NCBI RefSeq assembly: GCF_003096095.1
Contig: NZ_CP015453.1
Span: 1,426,001 to 1,490,000, forward strand
Source of the DNA: Dietzia psychralcaliphila
Lineage (GTDB): Bacteria > Actinomycetota > Actinomycetes > Mycobacteriales > Mycobacteriaceae
DNA: 64,000 bases
Reading direction: 5' to 3'
Shown: positions 36,163-44,074 of the stretch, piece by piece
Position numbering within the stretch: the stretch's first letter is position 1
Layout: every line of letters begins with the position of its first letter
The notes under the pieces: generated by a model
The model's input: the letters and a program-made list of their open reading frames with translations, nothing else
What the model was told of the DNA's origin: nothing
Database searches by the model: none
Program-made: the position numbers and the translations under genes

Positions 36163-37929
36163 TCACACCACCCGCACCACGGCGAACCCGAACGCCTGGC
36201 AGAAGACCGAGTCGTCGTCGGCCACCGCCCCCGAGACCAACACCGCTTCGCCGGCCAGCGGGACCCGGGACGGCTCGGTGCCCAGATTCACCACCAGCGC
36301 CAGCGAGCCGCGGTGGACCACGAGCCAGCGGCCGTCCTCGGCTTCGACCCCGCAGTCCACCCGCACCGACCCCAGCCACGGATCGCTGAGGTCGGGCTCG
36401 GACCGCCGGAGTGCGATGAGCGCGCGGTACCCCCGCAGGATCTCGGCGTGCTCGTCCTGGGTCTGCTCGGACCGGTCCAGCACCGACCGCCGGAACGTCT
36501 CCGGGTCCTGGGGGTCCGCCACCGTGGCCGGGTCCCATCCCATCTCGGCGAACTCGCGGGTCCGGCCCCGGCGCACGGCGTCGGCGAGCTCGGGCTCGGG
36601 GTGTGAGGTGAAGAAGCAGAACGGGGTCCGCGCGCCCCATTCCTCGCCCTGGAACAACATGGGGGTGAAGGGCGAGCACAGGACGATCGCGGCCTTGGCC
36701 AGCTGCTGGGCCGGGGTCAGGTTCATGGACGGCCGATCGCCCGCGGCGCGGTTGCCCACCTGGTCGTGGGTCAGGGTGTACGCCACGAACCGGCTGCCCG
36801 GTACCCGTCCCACGTCCACCGGGCGGCCATGGACCCGCCCGCGGAACGCGGACCACGTCCCGGCGTGCAGGAACGCCCCGGTGAGTACCTGCCGCAGCGA
36901 CTCGAGCGACCCGAAGTCCGAGTAGTAGCCCTGGCGTTCACCCGAGACGGCGGCGTGGACGGCGTGGTGCACGTCGTCGTCCCACTGCCCCTGGAGCCCG
37001 TACCCGCCGCCCTCACGCGCGGTGACCAACCGTGGATCGTTCTGGTCCGACTCCGCCACCAGAGACAGGGGTCGCCCGAGGTGGGTGGACAGGGACTCGA
37101 CCTCCACCGCCAACTGCTCGAGCAGGTGCACTGCCGAGGCGTCGTGCAGGGCGTGAACCGCGTCCAGCCGCAGGGCGTCCACGTGGAACTCGTCGAACCA
37201 GCGCAGGGCGTTGTCGATGATGTAGCGCCGCACCTCGCCCGAGTGCGGTCCGTCGAGATTGAGCCCCGCGCCCCACGGTCCGTCGGCGGCGGACAAGTAC
37301 GGGCCGAACTCCGGCAGGTAGTTCCCCGACGGTCCCAGATGGTTGTAGACCACGTCCAGGCACACGCCCAGTCCGCGTGCGTGGCAGGCGTTCACGAACT
37401 CCTGGAACGCGTCCGGCCCGCCGTACGGCTCGTGCACGGCGAACCACGCCACCCCGTCGTAGCCCCATCCGTACTCGCCGTTGAAGGCGTTGACCGGCAT
37501 CACCTCGACCATGTCCACGCCCAGCTCCACCAGTTCGTCAAGGAACTCGATCGCGCTGGTCAGGGTGCCGACTGGGGAGAAGGTACCTACGTGCATCTCA
37601 TAGATCACCGATCCAGCCAGTTGCCGACCGGTCCACGCGTGATCGGTCCACCGGGAGGTGTCCACCCGGTGCACCCGTGAGAGCCCGTGCACGCCGTGGG
37701 GTTGACGCCGGGACCGTGGGTCGGGACGCGGATCGCTCACCTCGCCGTCGTCGCCCGTCACCACGAACCCGTAGTCCCTGCCCACCTCCCGCACGACGGT
37801 CGACGTCCACCAGCCGTCGGCGGCGCGGTGCATGGCGATCGGATCGGCATCGGCGGAGTCCAGGACGAGTCCGACGGCATCGGCTGTCGGCGCCCAGACG
37901 GAGAACGTGTCACTGCTCGGGAAGGTCAC
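36163..37929 (-). CDS. treZ: Malto-oligosyltrehalose trehalohydrolase
   Basis: 588-589 residues; two adjacent GTG codons (37932, 37929). The second is preferred, because a minus-strand TACCCT box lies 6 nt before it. TreZ (GH13) releases trehalose from maltooligosyl-trehalose made by TreY. Present are an N-terminal CBM48-type domain (FSVWAPTADAVGLVL), the GH13 barrel with VVYNHLGPSGNYL, the nucleophile Asp in VDALRLDAVHAL and the acid Glu in LVAESDQNDPRL. It is separated here from treXY by five genes. Confidence 0.94.
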   Translation of the reverse strand: MTFPSSDTFSVWAPTADAVGLVLDSADADPIAMHRAADGWWTSTVVREVGRDYGFVVTGDDGEVSDPRPDPRSRRQPHGVHGLSRVHRVDTSRWTDHAWTGRQLAGSVIYEMHVGTFSPVGTLTSAIEFLDELVELGVDMVEVMPVNAFNGEYGWGYDGVAWFAVHEPYGGPDAFQEFVNACHARGLGVCLDVVYNHLGPSGNYLPEFGPYLSAADGPWGAGLNLDGPHSGEVRRYIIDNALRWFDEFHVDALRLDAVHALHDASAVHLLEQLAVEVESLSTHLGRPLSLVAESDQNDPRLVTAREGGGYGLQGQWDDDVHHAVHAAVSGERQGYYSDFGSLESLRQVLTGAFLHAGTWSAFRGRVHGRPVDVGRVPGSRFVAYTLTHDQVGNRAAGDRPSMNLTPAQQLAKAAIVLCSPFTPMLFQGEEWGARTPFCFFTSHPEPELADAVRRGRTREFAEMGWDPATVADPQDPETFRRSVLDRSEQTQDEHAEILRGYRALIALRRSEPDLSDPWLGSVRVDCGVEAEDGRWLVVHRGSLALVVNLGTEPSRVPLAGEAVLVSGAVADDDSVFCQAFGFAVVRVV

Positions 37930-37935
37930 CACCCC

Positions 37936-38954: not shown

Positions 38955-39629
38955 TCAGCCGTGGCGGCGAACCACGTCCGTGAGGTCCGCGCGATCCGCC
39001 CGGAACGTGTTGGCCGGATGTTCGGGGTCGGCGTAGCCGAACGCGATCCCGCACACGATCAGCCGGTCCTCGGGGATTCCCAGATGCTCGCGGACTCCGT
39101 CTGAGTAGAGCGCGAGCGCGGCCTGCGCGCAGGTGGACACGCCCAGCGAGGACGCCGCCGCCAGGAACGTCGCCACATAGCCACCGCAGTCGACCGCGCC
39201 GTAGGTGCCCAGGCCTGCGTCGGAGGTGATCACCGCGACGTGCGGGGCGCCGAAGAACCGGTAGTTCTCCAACATCTGGGTCAGTCGCGCATCCTTGTCG
39301 GAACGCTCGATGCCCAGCGCGGTGTAGAGGCCGTAACCGCTGGCCCGCCGCCGTTCGCCGTACACGCCCTCGTAGCGCTCGGGCGCCGGCAGATCGGAGC
39401 GCATGCCGTTGCCCAGCACGTACTCGGTGAGGTGCTTGCCGAACTCGGCGGTCGCCTGCCCGGTGACCAGGTCGACCTGCCAGGCCTGTGAGTTGCACCA
39501 GGACGCCGTGCGCTGGGCCATCTGCAGGATCCGGTCGATCGTCTCCTCGGGGACGGGCTCGGACGTGAACCCTCGGCAGCTGTAGCGGTCGTCGAGGATC
39601 TGCTCGAGCGTGGTGGCGGCGTCGGTCAT
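38955..39629 (-). CDS. Nitroreductase-family flavoprotein
   Basis: 224 residues from ATG 39629, chosen over 39674 because GGAGG precedes it. FMN-dependent oxidoreductase fold: ILDDRYSCRGF at the start (typical nitroreductase R-x-S-x-R phosphate-binding site), NSQAWQVDLV, then the Gly-rich YGAVDCGGYVATFLAAASSLGVSTC and IPEDRLIVCGIAFGYAD. It reduces an unidentified nitro, quinone or flavin substrate with NAD(P)H. Confidence 0.88.
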   Translation of the reverse strand: MTDAATTLEQILDDRYSCRGFTSEPVPEETIDRILQMAQRTASWCNSQAWQVDLVTGQATAEFGKHLTEYVLGNGMRSDLPAPERYEGVYGERRRASGYGLYTALGIERSDKDARLTQMLENYRFFGAPHVAVITSDAGLGTYGAVDCGGYVATFLAAASSLGVSTCAQAALALYSDGVREHLGIPEDRLIVCGIAFGYADPEHPANTFRADRADLTDVVRRHG

Positions 39630-39690
39630 GGGCCCTCCAGGGGATCGTCCGAAATTGTGATGCCAGTCTCGCACGGGGCCTGTTTCGGGC

Positions 39691-39730
39691 GCCCGCCAGC
39701 GCCCGCCAGCGCCCGCCAGTGCCCGCCAAG
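39691..39730 (+). repeat. 4 x 10-bp tandem repeat
   Basis: Four consecutive units GCCCGCCAGC / GCCCGCCAGT / GCCCGCCAAG, 32 bp before the left palindrome. Confidence 0.85.
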
Positions 39731-39761
39731 ACTGGCCGACTCTGGTCCTCAGTCACTGCAA

Positions 39762-39825
39762 CTGACCTATCGGAGTCCGACTGACCTACGGGATCCCAGC
39801 GGTCAGTCGTATTCCGGTGGGTCAG
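39762..39825. repeat. 64-bp near-perfect palindrome, left copy
   Basis: A palindrome centred on GGGATCCC (39790-39797) whose arms pair at 25 of 32 positions (3 more are G-T). It begins CTGACCTATCGGA, carries an inner CTGACC / GGTCAG pair, and ends GGTGGGTCAG. It shares 51 of 64 bases with the copy at 40904-40967 and lies 116 bp before the start of the gene between them. Confidence 0.9.
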
Positions 39826-39941
39826 CTCCCCGTGGGACCAGGCCGCTGCACGCATTCCACAGGGCTCGGTGTCTCCACAGATGCATCCGAAACGTGGGTT
39901 CAGCACCGGGCCCCGCATTCCGCGATCGCGATGATCTGACT

Positions 39942-40871
39942 GTGACCGACATCAATGGCCTGCGCTCCCGTCTCCTCACCACACAACAACTTCTCGGCCG
40001 GGGCCTGAGCAGTCAGGCGCTCAGCCGTTCCGTGGAGGCACGCGAGTTGATCCGTATCAGGCCCGGGTTCTACGTCGAGGGCGACGCGCGTGAGCTCCCC
40101 CGCGACGCGCGTCACCTGCTGTCGGTTCTGGCCGCGGACACGGCACTCGGTTGTCCGGTCTTCTCCCACTCGTCCGCGGCCGTCATCCTCGGACTCCCGT
40201 CGTGGGGGCTTGCGCTACGCCGGGTCGTCGTCTCGGAAGACGGCGCTAAGGGCCGGACCCGCACGACCAATCTGACCGCGCACCGCACCCTGCGGCTCCG
40301 ACGGGATGACGTCATCAGTGTCGATGGGCTTCGAGTCACGAAGCCGGCACTGACGGTGGTGGACCTCGCGACTTCGGCTAGGCGAGACGCGGCCGTTGCG
40401 GTGGCGGACGCCGCAGTCAACGGCGGGCTGGTCTCCGTGCCGGCTCTGGAGTGCGCCCTGGAGCAGGCGGTGGGCAGGATGGGGATCAAGAAGGCCCGGG
40501 CCGCGATGGTGATGGTCGACGGCCGGAGCGAGAGCGTTGCGGAGACCCTGAGCCGACTGTCGTTCAGCGATTACGGCCTGCCCACCCCGGAGACGCAGGC
40601 GAACATCTTCGATACCCATGGCAACCGAATCGCCAGAGTGGACTTCTTCTGGCGTGAATACGGGGTGATCGGCGAATGCGACGGCTTCGGCAAGTACTTC
40701 GACGGGGCGGATTCTGCCGAAACCAGGCGCCGGCTCGCCCGCGAGAAGGACCGGGACGCTGAACTGATGGCTCTCGGCTACCGGGTCGTCCACTGGAGAT
40801 GGGCTGATCTGGAACAGCCTTGGCTGCTGGCCGAGCGGATCAGGCGTGTGCTCTTTCCGGTTGCAGCGTGA
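39942..40871 (+). CDS. AbiEi-type N-terminal domain fused to a DUF559/Vsr-like nuclease domain
   Basis: 309 residues from GTG 39942. Residues ~1-150 resemble the AbiEi antitoxin-type winged-helix plus adjoining domain (LLTTQQLLGRGLSSQALSR, LIRIRPGFYVEGD, ISVDGLRVTKPALTVVDLA). The C-terminal ~90 residues resemble DUF559/very-short-patch endonuclease folds: RVDFFWREYGVIGECDGFGKY gives the acidic D...E-x-D residues, and REKDRDAELMALGYRVVHWRWADL the trailing strand. No AbiEii-like toxin gene is adjacent. Two 64-bp palindromes flank the gene. Function is inferred only; the protein could act on DNA, perhaps on the palindromes. Confidence 0.7.
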   Translation: MTDINGLRSRLLTTQQLLGRGLSSQALSRSVEARELIRIRPGFYVEGDARELPRDARHLLSVLAADTALGCPVFSHSSAAVILGLPSWGLALRRVVVSEDGAKGRTRTTNLTAHRTLRLRRDDVISVDGLRVTKPALTVVDLATSARRDAAVAVADAAVNGGLVSVPALECALEQAVGRMGIKKARAAMVMVDGRSESVAETLSRLSFSDYGLPTPETQANIFDTHGNRIARVDFFWREYGVIGECDGFGKYFDGADSAETRRRLAREKDRDAELMALGYRVVHWRWADLEQPWLLAERIRRVLFPVAA

Positions 40872-40903
40872 ACTTCCGGTTGGAGCTTGAACGGCCCCGA
40901 CGG

Positions 40904-40967
40904 CAGACCTATCGGATTTCGCCTGACCTGTGGGATCCCGTAGGTCAGTCGCAATCCGATAGGTGAG
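40904..40967. repeat. 64-bp near-perfect palindrome, right copy
   Basis: The same 64-bp element, centred on GGGATCCC (40932-40939), with 26 of 32 arm positions paired, including perfect CTGACCT/AGGTCAG and CCTATCGG/CCGATAGG blocks. It starts 32 bp after the stop of the AbiEi/DUF559 gene. The two terminal base pairs differ from the left copy (CAGACC and GGTGAG). Confidence 0.9.
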
Positions 40968-41026
40968 GTTGCGGGATTGCTGGTGCTCGGCGGGGCAGGG
41001 CGGAATGGAGCCTGCCGTGCCACGGT

Positions 41027-41032
41027 TATCCT
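41027..41032 (+). promoter_or_regulatory. -10 box of a leaderless promoter for the S4 gene
   Basis: TATCCT, 6 nt before the ATG at 41039. Confidence 0.45.
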
Positions 41033-41038
41033 CACCGT

Positions 41039-41404
41039 ATGGCAGTGCGGGTGGACGCGTGGACGTGGTCGGTGCGGCTGTTCCCGTCGCGGACCAAGGC
41101 GGCGGCCGCCTGCCGTGGCGGTCACGTCAAAGTCAATGGGGACGCCGTGCAACCGTCGAAGAGCGTCGTGCCCGGGGATCGCGTCCAGGTGACCGGTGCG
41201 CTCGGCCGGATCCGCATCCTCGAGGTCGTACGGACGGTCAACAAGCGGGTGGGTGCTCCCGTTGCCGCGACCTGCTACATCGATCACTCGCCACCGCCTC
41301 CGCCCAAGGAGGTGGTGGCCTCACAACCGCGGCGTGACAGGGGCGCGGGGCGGCCCACCAAGCGCGAGCGGCGGGAGACCGACCGGCTGCAGGGCCGCGG
41401 GTAG
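41039..41404 (+). CDS. S4-domain RNA-binding protein, Hsp15-like
   Basis: A 121-residue protein with an S4 fold at residues ~1-70 (VRVDAWTWSVRLFPSRTKAAAA, HVKVNGDAVQPSKSVVPGDRVQV), close to the Hsp15/RqcH-partner family that binds ribosomal RNA or stalled 50S subunits. The C-terminus is Arg-rich (RGAGRPTKRERRETDRLQGRG). Its last residues and TAG stop are made by the first unit of a 27-bp repeat that continues past the stop. Confidence 0.85.
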   Translation: MAVRVDAWTWSVRLFPSRTKAAAACRGGHVKVNGDAVQPSKSVVPGDRVQVTGALGRIRILEVVRTVNKRVGAPVAATCYIDHSPPPPPKEVVASQPRRDRGAGRPTKRERRETDRLQGRG

Positions 41405-41521: not shown

Positions 41522-44074
41522 TCAGTCGGCCTCGCGCACGATCAGCACGACCGGCGACCCGCTGAGCAGGTCGCCCACGTCCACGCGTCCGGAGATCGAC
41601 CGGCCGTCCGGGCGGACAGCCCATTCACCGTCCGGGAGCTGGACCGACGTACCGGCGACGTCTGCGGCGCCGACGACCGCGGTGCGCCGCCGGGCGATCA
41701 TGCCGACCGCAGGCCGGCCGGCGACGGAGCGGGTGAACGCCACCACGTCGGCGGCAGCGGGGCCCCGCACCGGAAGCGGGACGTGGGCACCGCCCGCCAT
41801 GGCAGCCGGGTGCTCACGCCGGATCCGCAGCGCCTCGCGGACCAGCGTGAACTTGGGGTGCCCGCTGCGGGCGACCGCTCCGGAGCGCAGGGGCGCGTAG
41901 TCCACGAACCGGCGGTTGTCCGGGTCGACCAGCGAGTCCTCCCACACCTCCGTGCCCTGGTATACGTCGGGCACCCCGGGGGACATCAGTTGGGTCGCCT
42001 TGGCGATCAGCGAGTTGTCGCGACCGGCCGGGGCGATCCGCCGGGCGAACGGGGCCAGCAGCGCGCCACCCGAGTCGAGCAGTGTGTCGATCCACTTGTG
42101 GGCCGAGGATTCGAAGTCCCCGTCCTGATCGGTCCACGTGGTGTGCACGGCCGCTTCACGCAGTGCCTTCTCGGCGTAGTCGTGTAGTCGGGACCGCAGA
42201 ACGTCGGAGGGCTCGCCCGACTCCGGCCATACGCCCACGATCACCTGGAGCAGGAAGTAACCGGCGTCCTCGGCGGGCGGCGGAAACCTCCGGAACACCT
42301 CGGCGACGAGATCCGCCCACTCTCCGGGCAGCTGCGAGAGCACCGAGATCCGGGCACGCACGTCCTCGCCCCGCTTGGTGTCGTGGGTGCTCAGCGTCGT
42401 CATCGCCAACGGAGTGGCGCGGGCGCGCTCGGCCATCGCCAGGTGGAAGGCCTCCACCGGCAGGCCCATACGGCCCGGCGAGCCGCCGACCTCGTTCAGC
42501 GAGACCAGCCGACCGAGCCGGTAGAACAGGCGGTCTTCCTCGGCCTTGGCGGTGGCCGCGCCGGTGACCTGTGCCAATCGGATCGAGGCCTCGCCGCCGA
42601 GAGCCAACGCCCCCGCCACGAGCCGGAGTGCAGACTCCAGTTTGGGCTCTTGGCGCTGCAGGTCCTCCATGATCGACGGGAGGGTGCCCCGCAGGACGGG
42701 GTAGTCGGCGCGGTAGACGGGCGTCTTCGCGATCACCGAGACCAGGGCCTCACGGAGCATGGCGTCCGCGTCGTCGTCGCCACCGTCGATCCCACCACCG
42801 GCCACACCGTCCGGACCGACACTCGACACTCCGATCGGGTCCTGACCCGCGGCGTCGCTCGACTCCCGCCCACCGGCGGCATCCCGCCGGACCGCTCGAG
42901 CCAGCCGCGTCAGCTCGGGGGACAGGTCCTCGATCACGATCTGCCGCTTGAGCAGCGCGGACTGCTCGTGGACCTGCTCCTCGTCACCGGGGCCGCCGGA
43001 GTACCGCGTGGCCAGCTCGGTCAACCGAGCCTGCCCGCTGTGGTCCACCAGCATCTGGTCGATCAGACGGAGGGCGTCGTAGCCGGTGGTCCCGTCGACG
43101 GGCATGGCGGGCTCGAGTACCTCGGCGGGGGCGAGGATCTTCTCGACCAGCAGCCATCGGTCGTCGCCGGCCAGCTCGCGGAGCCGACGGGCGTAGCCCA
43201 CCGGGTCGGCGAGGCCGTCGGGGTGGTCGACCCGGATGCCGTCGACCAGGTCCTCCTCGCACCAGCGGCGTACCTCGGAGTGGGTGGCGTCGAAGACCGC
43301 GGGGTCCTCCTGCCGGAGGCCGGCGAGCCCGGTGACGGTGAAGAACCGCCGGTAGCCCAGGAGTGGCTCGCGCCAGTGGACCAGCCGGTAGTGCTGCCGG
43401 TCGTGAACCTGCTGCGCGCTGCCCTCCCCGGTGCCGGGAGCCACCGGGAAGCGGTGGTCGTAGAAGTGGAGCTCGGCCTCAACTGAACCGGCCTCGCCGG
43501 AGCCGGAGCCGGACTCGGTGCCGGAGCCGGACTCGGTCCCGGGGCCGGTGGGGGTGACGACGACGAGCTGCTCGATGTCCTCCGGTGATCCCAGCACCGG
43601 GATCGCGATCCGGCCGTCCGCCCCGTTGGCGGGTTCGGTGTCGAAGTCGAAGAACGAGAAGTACGGCGAATCGGGGCCCCGCCGCAGCGCGTCCCACCAC
43701 CACCGGTTCGCGACCGGCTGGTCGACACCCAGGTGGTTGGGCACGATGTCCACCACGACGCCCAGCCCGTGGGCCCGGCACGCCTGCCGCAGGGACCGTA
43801 GCGCGTCGATGCCACCGAGTTCCGCGGCCACTGTGGTCGGGTCCACCACGTCGTACCCGTGGGTCGATCCGGGGGTCGCGGTCATCAGGGGCGACAGGTA
43901 CACCGAGCCCACGCCGAGGTCGGCGAGGTAGGGGACCAGCTCCTCGACGTCGGCCAGGACGAACCCGCGGCCGTCAGGGTCGGAGGCGGGCGTCCGCAGC
44001 TGCACGCGGTAGGTGCTCGCCAGTGCCGCGCCCCGTCGCAGCGGCCCGGTCGTGGGCTGGTCCGCGGCGGCCAC
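41522..44074 (-). CDS. treY: Malto-oligosyltrehalose synthase
   Basis: An 850-residue GH13 enzyme converting the reducing-end glucose of maltodextrin to trehalose linkage, the first step of the TreY-TreZ route. Typical features: YRVQLRTPASDPDGRGF at the N-terminus, VVDIVPNHLGVDQPVANRWWWD, nucleophile Asp in GIRVDHPDGLADP and Glu in WLLVEKILAP. A Gly/Ser-rich insertion (~residues 185-200, SGSGTESGSGSGEAGS) is unusual. It starts 2 nt after the treX stop, so it is clearly co-transcribed with it. Confidence 0.95.
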   Translation of the reverse strand: MAAADQPTTGPLRRGAALASTYRVQLRTPASDPDGRGFVLADVEELVPYLADLGVGSVYLSPLMTATPGSTHGYDVVDPTTVAAELGGIDALRSLRQACRAHGLGVVVDIVPNHLGVDQPVANRWWWDALRRGPDSPYFSFFDFDTEPANGADGRIAIPVLGSPEDIEQLVVVTPTGPGTESGSGTESGSGSGEAGSVEAELHFYDHRFPVAPGTGEGSAQQVHDRQHYRLVHWREPLLGYRRFFTVTGLAGLRQEDPAVFDATHSEVRRWCEEDLVDGIRVDHPDGLADPVGYARRLRELAGDDRWLLVEKILAPAEVLEPAMPVDGTTGYDALRLIDQMLVDHSGQARLTELATRYSGGPGDEEQVHEQSALLKRQIVIEDLSPELTRLARAVRRDAAGGRESSDAAGQDPIGVSSVGPDGVAGGGIDGGDDDADAMLREALVSVIAKTPVYRADYPVLRGTLPSIMEDLQRQEPKLESALRLVAGALALGGEASIRLAQVTGAATAKAEEDRLFYRLGRLVSLNEVGGSPGRMGLPVEAFHLAMAERARATPLAMTTLSTHDTKRGEDVRARISVLSQLPGEWADLVAEVFRRFPPPAEDAGYFLLQVIVGVWPESGEPSDVLRSRLHDYAEKALREAAVHTTWTDQDGDFESSAHKWIDTLLDSGGALLAPFARRIAPAGRDNSLIAKATQLMSPGVPDVYQGTEVWEDSLVDPDNRRFVDYAPLRSGAVARSGHPKFTLVREALRIRREHPAAMAGGAHVPLPVRGPAAADVVAFTRSVAGRPAVGMIARRRTAVVGAADVAGTSVQLPDGEWAVRPDGRSISGRVDVGDLLSGSPVVLIVREAD

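Follow-up and report, generated by a model that had tools for sequence, protein, structure and literature searches.

Genes for an AbiEi-like protein with a Vsr-like nuclease domain lie between matched palindromes in Dietzia and other Actinomycetota

In the 3.9 Mb genome of Dietzia psychralcaliphila, a gene for a 309-aa protein lies between two 64-bp palindromes, situated 116 bp before and 32 bp after it (Table 1). All positions given without a genome label are those of the window, i.e. the whole stretch of 64,000 nucleotides that was analyzed (NZ_CP015453.1, positions 1,426,001 to 1,490,000). A preliminary description had reported this arrangement, and its coordinates, pairing and palindrome centers were reproduced on recomputation. 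The likeness of the two palindromes to each other is also real, with 50/64 identical bases found in direct register where 51/64 had been claimed, and 53/64 in inverted register. The neighboring genes encode a nitroreductase (38955-39674) and an S4-domain protein (41039-41404). Together with these neighbors, the unit is enclosed by two alpha-amylase-family genes (36163-37932 and 41522-44074), which we take to be treZ and treY by name, and the earlier placement of the unit inside a tre neighborhood thereby holds. Just outside the left palindrome, at 39689-39728, there are four tandem copies of the 10-bp unit GCGCCCGCCA, one of them with a change.

Table 1. Features of the palindrome-flanked gene in the window. 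The last column gives the score of each palindrome with the Dietzia covariance model R1 in its own genome; both copies are themselves in the model alignment.
Feature	Position	Strand	Description	Model R1
Left palindrome	39762..39825	.	Two half-sites per arm (CTGACCTAtcgg / CTGACCTAcggg, 19 nt apart), center GGGATCCC; 25/32 pairs	E=8.6e-13
309-aa protein gene	39942..40871	+	Predicted AbiEi-antitoxin-like part (about 1-193) and Vsr/EDxHD-homing-endonuclease-like domain (about 194-309)	
Nuclease-like domain	40521..40868	+	Predicted from alignment A3 and structure matches	
Right palindrome	40904..40967	.	Same architecture as left, center GGGATCCC; 26/32 pairs	E=6.4e-16

The two flanking palindromes are the best in the window among those with 32-nt arms, the next best reaching 22/32 pairs. 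By a simple binomial estimate, 0.0007 palindromes of at least 25/32 pairs are expected in 64 kb, while a palindrome of 26 pairs was also reached in one out of 20 single-base shuffles of the window, which is the point in favor of coincidence. A single palindrome is weak evidence; a matching pair around one gene, recurring at homologous loci, is strong evidence. A count of palindromes over the whole genome, one of the checks suggested by the preliminary description, yielded only the two flanking palindromes as full copies by BLAST, in addition to two fragments of 20-25 nt (E 0.03 and 0.4), and one further degenerate solo copy at C1:2493154 by the covariance model.

By employing the best 80 out of 416 relatives in named genomes, we found 102 palindromes of at least 20/30 pairs in the 108 kb within 700 bp of the genes, compared with 31 in the 473 kb farther away, and 36/80 loci had one such palindrome per side. 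In fixed windows, counted for the 75 loci with full flanks (five were dropped as too close to contig ends), a palindrome of at least 19/30 was present upstream of the start at 52 loci, downstream of the gene at 58 and on both sides at 43, with the strict pair absent at 32; among 1715 control windows, 5.7% reached the same threshold. The upstream and downstream palindromes of the same locus were at least 40/60 identical in 39 of the 43 double-palindrome loci, and the median identity was 47/60 within loci versus 21/60 between them. A 44-mer shared between the two flanks (at least 30/44, no palindrome required) was found at 62 of the 74 loci used out of the 80, against a null of 4.5%. In a phylum-wide sample from a search of 396 genomes, with six candidates scored per genome, it was found at 19/28 loci against a null of 2.4%, the remaining 9/28 being without one; this sample held 30 loci, of which one was dropped as the window itself and one as too short. 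Three distant paralogues in the D. psychralcaliphila genome have shared flank 44-mers with scores of 35, 33 and 32 out of 44, of other sequences and without a null of their own. The link between gene and palindromes is not accidental, and coincidence, whose probability we regard as negligible, is refuted by these statistics (43/75 pairs, 62/74 and 19/28 shared flanks). Consequently, the REP/RAYT-like association put forward in the preliminary description stands, with matched flanking palindromes at homologues across Actinomycetota and with dispersed copies; the palindromes are neither confined to the window nor missing from homologous loci, which had been named as the marks of an accidental link.

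The protein itself matched Pfam AbiEi_4 at 23.7 bits, slightly below the cut-off of 25, and gave no match in an NCBIfam search. AbiEi models were its sole PADLOC matches (8.8e-15). An AlphaFold model was obtained with a pLDDT of 94.3, and structure comparison (VIA) yielded matches to I-Bth0305I, Vsr and AbiEi. By the model and these matches, the protein consists of an AbiEi-antitoxin-like part followed by a Vsr/homing-endonuclease-like domain, in agreement with the earlier guess of an AbiEi-like DNA-binding part and a Vsr/DUF559-like nuclease. Residues E201, D234, E245, D247, K251, E268 and R271 are invariant in alignment A3, which comprises 71 out of 81 proteins; L079, L107, L109, L114 and L136 were excluded because their matched stretch has a reading-frame problem or a stop codon, and L073, L074, L115, L128 and L141 as near-duplicates or partial. 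DUF559 matches seven of the 71 members and MTES_1575 one. A HUH/Y1 tyrosine transposase domain, as in RAYTs, was not among the Pfam, NCBIfam and PADLOC matches, and with a fold and invariant residues that are Vsr/AbiEi-like the protein was rejected as a RAYT. The family has matches in at least 111 of the 396 actinobacterial genomes (E<=1e-20), a subset of which was examined for palindromes.

As AbiEi is one half of a phage-defence toxin-antitoxin system, and the protein fuses antitoxin-like and nuclease-like parts, the palindromes might restrain or silence a harmful nuclease, or label the cell's own DNA, in a defence or addiction module. However, the window gene is flanked by the nitroreductase and S4-domain genes and not by a toxin partner, and PADLOC recognized AbiEi models only, making such a module very unlikely. 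For the defence element envisaged in the preliminary description, the AbiEi resemblance was the only evidence found. Compared with the AbiE type IV toxin-antitoxin systems (AbiEi / Rv2827c), the AbiEi fold is shared, as seen in the PADLOC and structure matches, but no AbiEii nucleotidyltransferase toxin gene adjoins the window gene, the one gene whose neighbors were checked.

The palindromes have a characteristic internal structure. Averaged over 24 palindrome families, the self-similarity of the arms peaks at exactly 19 nt (0.515, compared with 0.21-0.31 at other lags from 8 to 25); the families come from 39 of the 43 loci with a palindrome on each side, L091, L106, L109 and L122 being excluded because their own two palindromes do not match each other (14-20/60). 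The outer half-site thus recurs 19 nt inwards, so that the palindrome typically consists of four half-sites, in tandem within each arm and inverted about the center. In 28 Dietzia copies (alignment A2) the paired positions covary, at 0.335 versus 0.171 when shuffled (0/500), although these copies were chosen partly for palindromicity, which biases the pair percentages upward. Strong conservation of 20-nt arms around a variable 16-nt center was seen across 19 copies in G076, a distant genome. Cognate palindrome pairs vary from lineage to lineage, the TGCCCCTCGG type being an example that is non-cognate to the 309-aa protein. The correlation between domain-wise protein distance and palindrome distance is weak, with partial rank correlations of 0.08-0.11 over 35 loci. 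Upstream of the S4-domain gene in G019 (L149) and G005 (L152), the 19-bp unit appeared by eye to be repeated further, forming short arrays.

Such extended self-complementarity could also reflect RNA hairpins or transcription terminators. On the gene strand, however, G-T mismatches did not outnumber A-C ones (126 and 142, respectively); neither was any terminator-like site found in window positions 39600-41100, where all Rfam matches fell far below gathering scores. We therefore consider a role in RNA extremely unlikely.

Model R1 found palindromes in 18 out of 23 Dietzia genomes, with 1 to 35 matches each (a site usually being counted once per strand) and solo copies at up to about 18 sites per genome, and found none in G011, G016, G017, G018 and G022; since just 150 first-look candidates were scored per genome, both counts and zeros are provisional. 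Matches were present in all 15 Dietzia genomes with a close gene, including G020, counted as a carrier by gene fragments at contig ends, versus three of the eight others (Fisher p 0.0017, with species that are non-independent). These three are G007, G013, where the contig begins at the palindrome, and G021, which is 64% complete. G007, with an assembly 95% complete, has type-A palindromes at about ten sites (19 strand matches) and no close gene; the gene may have been lost, its contig may be missing, or the palindromes may have another partner. Outside Dietzia, one G076 palindrome used as query gave 38 strand matches in G076 (19 sites), 22 in G386 (12 sites) and 15 in G164 (8 sites), placing the solo copies of this distant family at 8-19 sites per genome. 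Similarly, a palindrome from G310, of another genus in the same family, gave 24 strand matches (16 sites) in G310, and three other genomes had none. In G004 there are three types of solo copy, and judged by eye these look like the palindromes at three separate gene copies. According to crude gene calls, the solo sites are mainly intergenic (12/17 in G076 and 30/37 in Dietzia), without orientation bias, and adjoin genes of every orientation, at promoters and elsewhere.

An alternative role would be that of a regulator only, in which the palindromes serve as operators for the AbiEi-like part: repression of its own gene would act through the upstream palindrome, the rest would form a regulon or decoys, and the nuclease domain would have another job. 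AbiEi and Rv2827c are described as autoregulating via inverted repeats (PMC7319586), the arms are constrained in the manner of binding sites, and 52/75 loci carry a palindrome upstream of the start. On the other hand, even more of the loci (58/75) carry one downstream, promoters are not favored alone among the solo sites (by the same crude gene calls), the nuclease residues are invariant, and the paired spacer positions covary, which plain operators do not need. Regulation by itself is thus an unlikely account.

The solo sites are often common to several species. Ten of 17 G076 sites also occur in the sister species G420, and over these the identity is 395/400 in the arms, 2406/2744 in the flanks and 132/160 in the central loop. 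The loop is inverted at two of the ten; one of two gene-flanking palindromes shows a weaker sign of such an inversion. One G076 palindrome site is missing in G420. Another site has a full palindrome in G004 and a shortened one in G009, and one of at least 20/30 in none of the 14 other genomes compared. At this last place (L189, L253), G010 and G019 carry two genes, VOC-like and AraC-like by eye, and apparent remnants of one gene remain. Half-sites also differ between lineages: the motif CTGT is found in 7/12 outer half-sites at the six solo sites retrieved from G019 and in 3/4 half-sites of its gene-flanking pair at 3489902, versus 0/66 half-sites in four relatives, orthologous sites included (counted in ungapped registers, a few shifted by one; the Fisher test was run against 0/53, the full count being 0/66). 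A second unit in G019 (L034) has a different palindrome type. For one genome and one of its units, the CTGT pattern suggests that half-sites may change in step with the gene-flanking pair.

Comparison of loci with and without the gene, also suggested in the preliminary description, placed the gene between the same neighbors in 11 Dietzia genomes and showed it to be absent there in G007, G016, G017 and G020, the other Dietzia genomes (with other neighbors, contig ends or an unclear spacer) lying outside this count. Among the 11 gene-bearing loci, G012 has one weak palindrome and G015 none at threshold. In two Rhodococcus records (L100 and L123), flanks that are 93-99% identical enclose differing units, with genes 65% identical and in opposite orientation, and the breakpoints fall at the palindromes, as in a cassette-like swap. 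These cases speak for a transposon or homing element that is active at present, has palindromic ends and carries gene and palindromes along as one unit. Yet among the locus pairs listed, related gene copies are mostly syntenic and diverged, and the locus comparisons gave no clean insertion with target duplication. With one genome per species, neither a near-identical second gene copy inside one genome nor the recent copies at several sites with target duplication typical of insertion sequences were seen. Furthermore, a single-protein query gave 0 matches in 50,697 phage records and three in 72,556 plasmid records. Such an element is consequently quite unlikely, and from the mobile unit of the preliminary description there remain the presence and absence of the gene unit at one locus, the gain and loss of solo sites and one cassette-like swap. 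The plasmid homologues (32-41% identity) are on three large plasmids of Tsukamurella tyrosinosolvens, namely NZ_LR134465, NZ_LR134451 and NZ_LR134463.

Taking the data together, we lean towards an antitoxin-derived, nuclease-driven analogue of REPIN-RAYT, in which the palindrome is the putative site of the enzyme; binding, cutting and copying by the enzyme are what we infer. AbiEi is reported to bind two 23-bp inverted repeats (PMC7319586), and the I-Bth0305I family to dimerise on a target that is nearly 60 bp long (PMC3943268). A palindrome of about 60 bp made of four half-sites, beside an AbiEi and I-Bth0305I-like fusion, would most simply be the protein's own site. The antitoxin-derived N-terminal part would bind the half-sites spaced by about 19 bp, placing two (or four) protomers symmetrically on the palindrome, and the C-terminal domain would nick or cut the palindrome, perhaps as a hairpin or cruciform. 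Repair of the break would then keep the arms symmetrical, invert the centers and rarely copy or lose palindromes, and a small cognate population (two at the gene, the rest between genes) would persist, changing in step with the enzyme. Cutting and repair would account for the symmetry, the flipped centers, the gain and loss and the change in step, while operator use alone would explain neither why a copy lies downstream nor why the nuclease residues are invariant. Template switching or arm-arm recombination could, however, maintain symmetry and invert loops without an enzyme. Other points that weigh against our reading are the 32/75 loci lacking a strict pair, the 9/28 phylum-wide loci in which no flank repeat is shared, the palindromes of G007 with no close gene, the second palindrome type in G019, the syntenic gene copies and the weak correlation of protein with palindrome distance. 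A bolder version, to which we give somewhat less than even credence, would be a second independent invention of the REPIN-RAYT lifestyle, phylum-wide, in which the nuclease fusion acts on its own 60-bp palindrome, probably in extruded form, by cutting and inverting it, spreads copies of it through repair of the breaks, and is kept by its hosts along with the palindromes.

Among known systems, REPIN-RAYT is the closest by behavior. As in REP systems, cognate palindromes flank the gene, as the locus statistics indicate, and palindromes like those at the gene are dispersed and mostly intergenic (by crude gene calls). Conserved ends around a variable middle, compensatory changes and several gene-palindrome pairs per genome are further common traits. 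According to published work, RAYTs occur as single copies and are inherited vertically (PMC3116915, PMC8049555). Unlike REPIN-RAYT, the enzyme here joins an AbiEi-like part to a Vsr/EDxHD-like nuclease, the copies are fewer than the 69-235 REPINs reported for E. coli, the arms carry a 19-nt tandem half-site repeat, and mobility is a proposal. Because the defining tyrosine transposase is absent, the system is not a member of REPIN-RAYT. With the EDxHD homing endonucleases (I-Bth0305I) and Vsr it shares the Vsr-like catalytic fold, as indicated by the structure matches, but the gene is free-standing between two intact palindromes and the DNA-binding part is AbiEi-like. PF18741 REase_MTES_1575 and DUF559 are similar in belonging to Vsr-fold nuclease families (PMC3710099), and among the papers listed from the open-access literature no palindrome partnership turned up under these names. 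By that literature we rate the system as new in kind: its parts come from three known kinds, to none of which, as far as tested, it belongs; if all enzyme-palindrome partnerships are counted as one kind, it would be a variant of that kind. If true, this would point to a role for a large family that goes mostly under AbiEi-antitoxin or DUF559 labels, and would bring a second, unrelated enzyme to the question of the REPIN field, i.e. why bacteria retain enzyme and palindromes for so long. Since cognate pairs differ between lineages, specificity is open to swap tests.

Lastly, a separate observation was made in G420 (L379, C1:31000-40500), where two palindrome copies with duplicated flanks enclose 7.8 kb that include an operon, molybdopterin-oxidoreductase-like by eye, and where the sister species has a single palindrome at the corresponding place.
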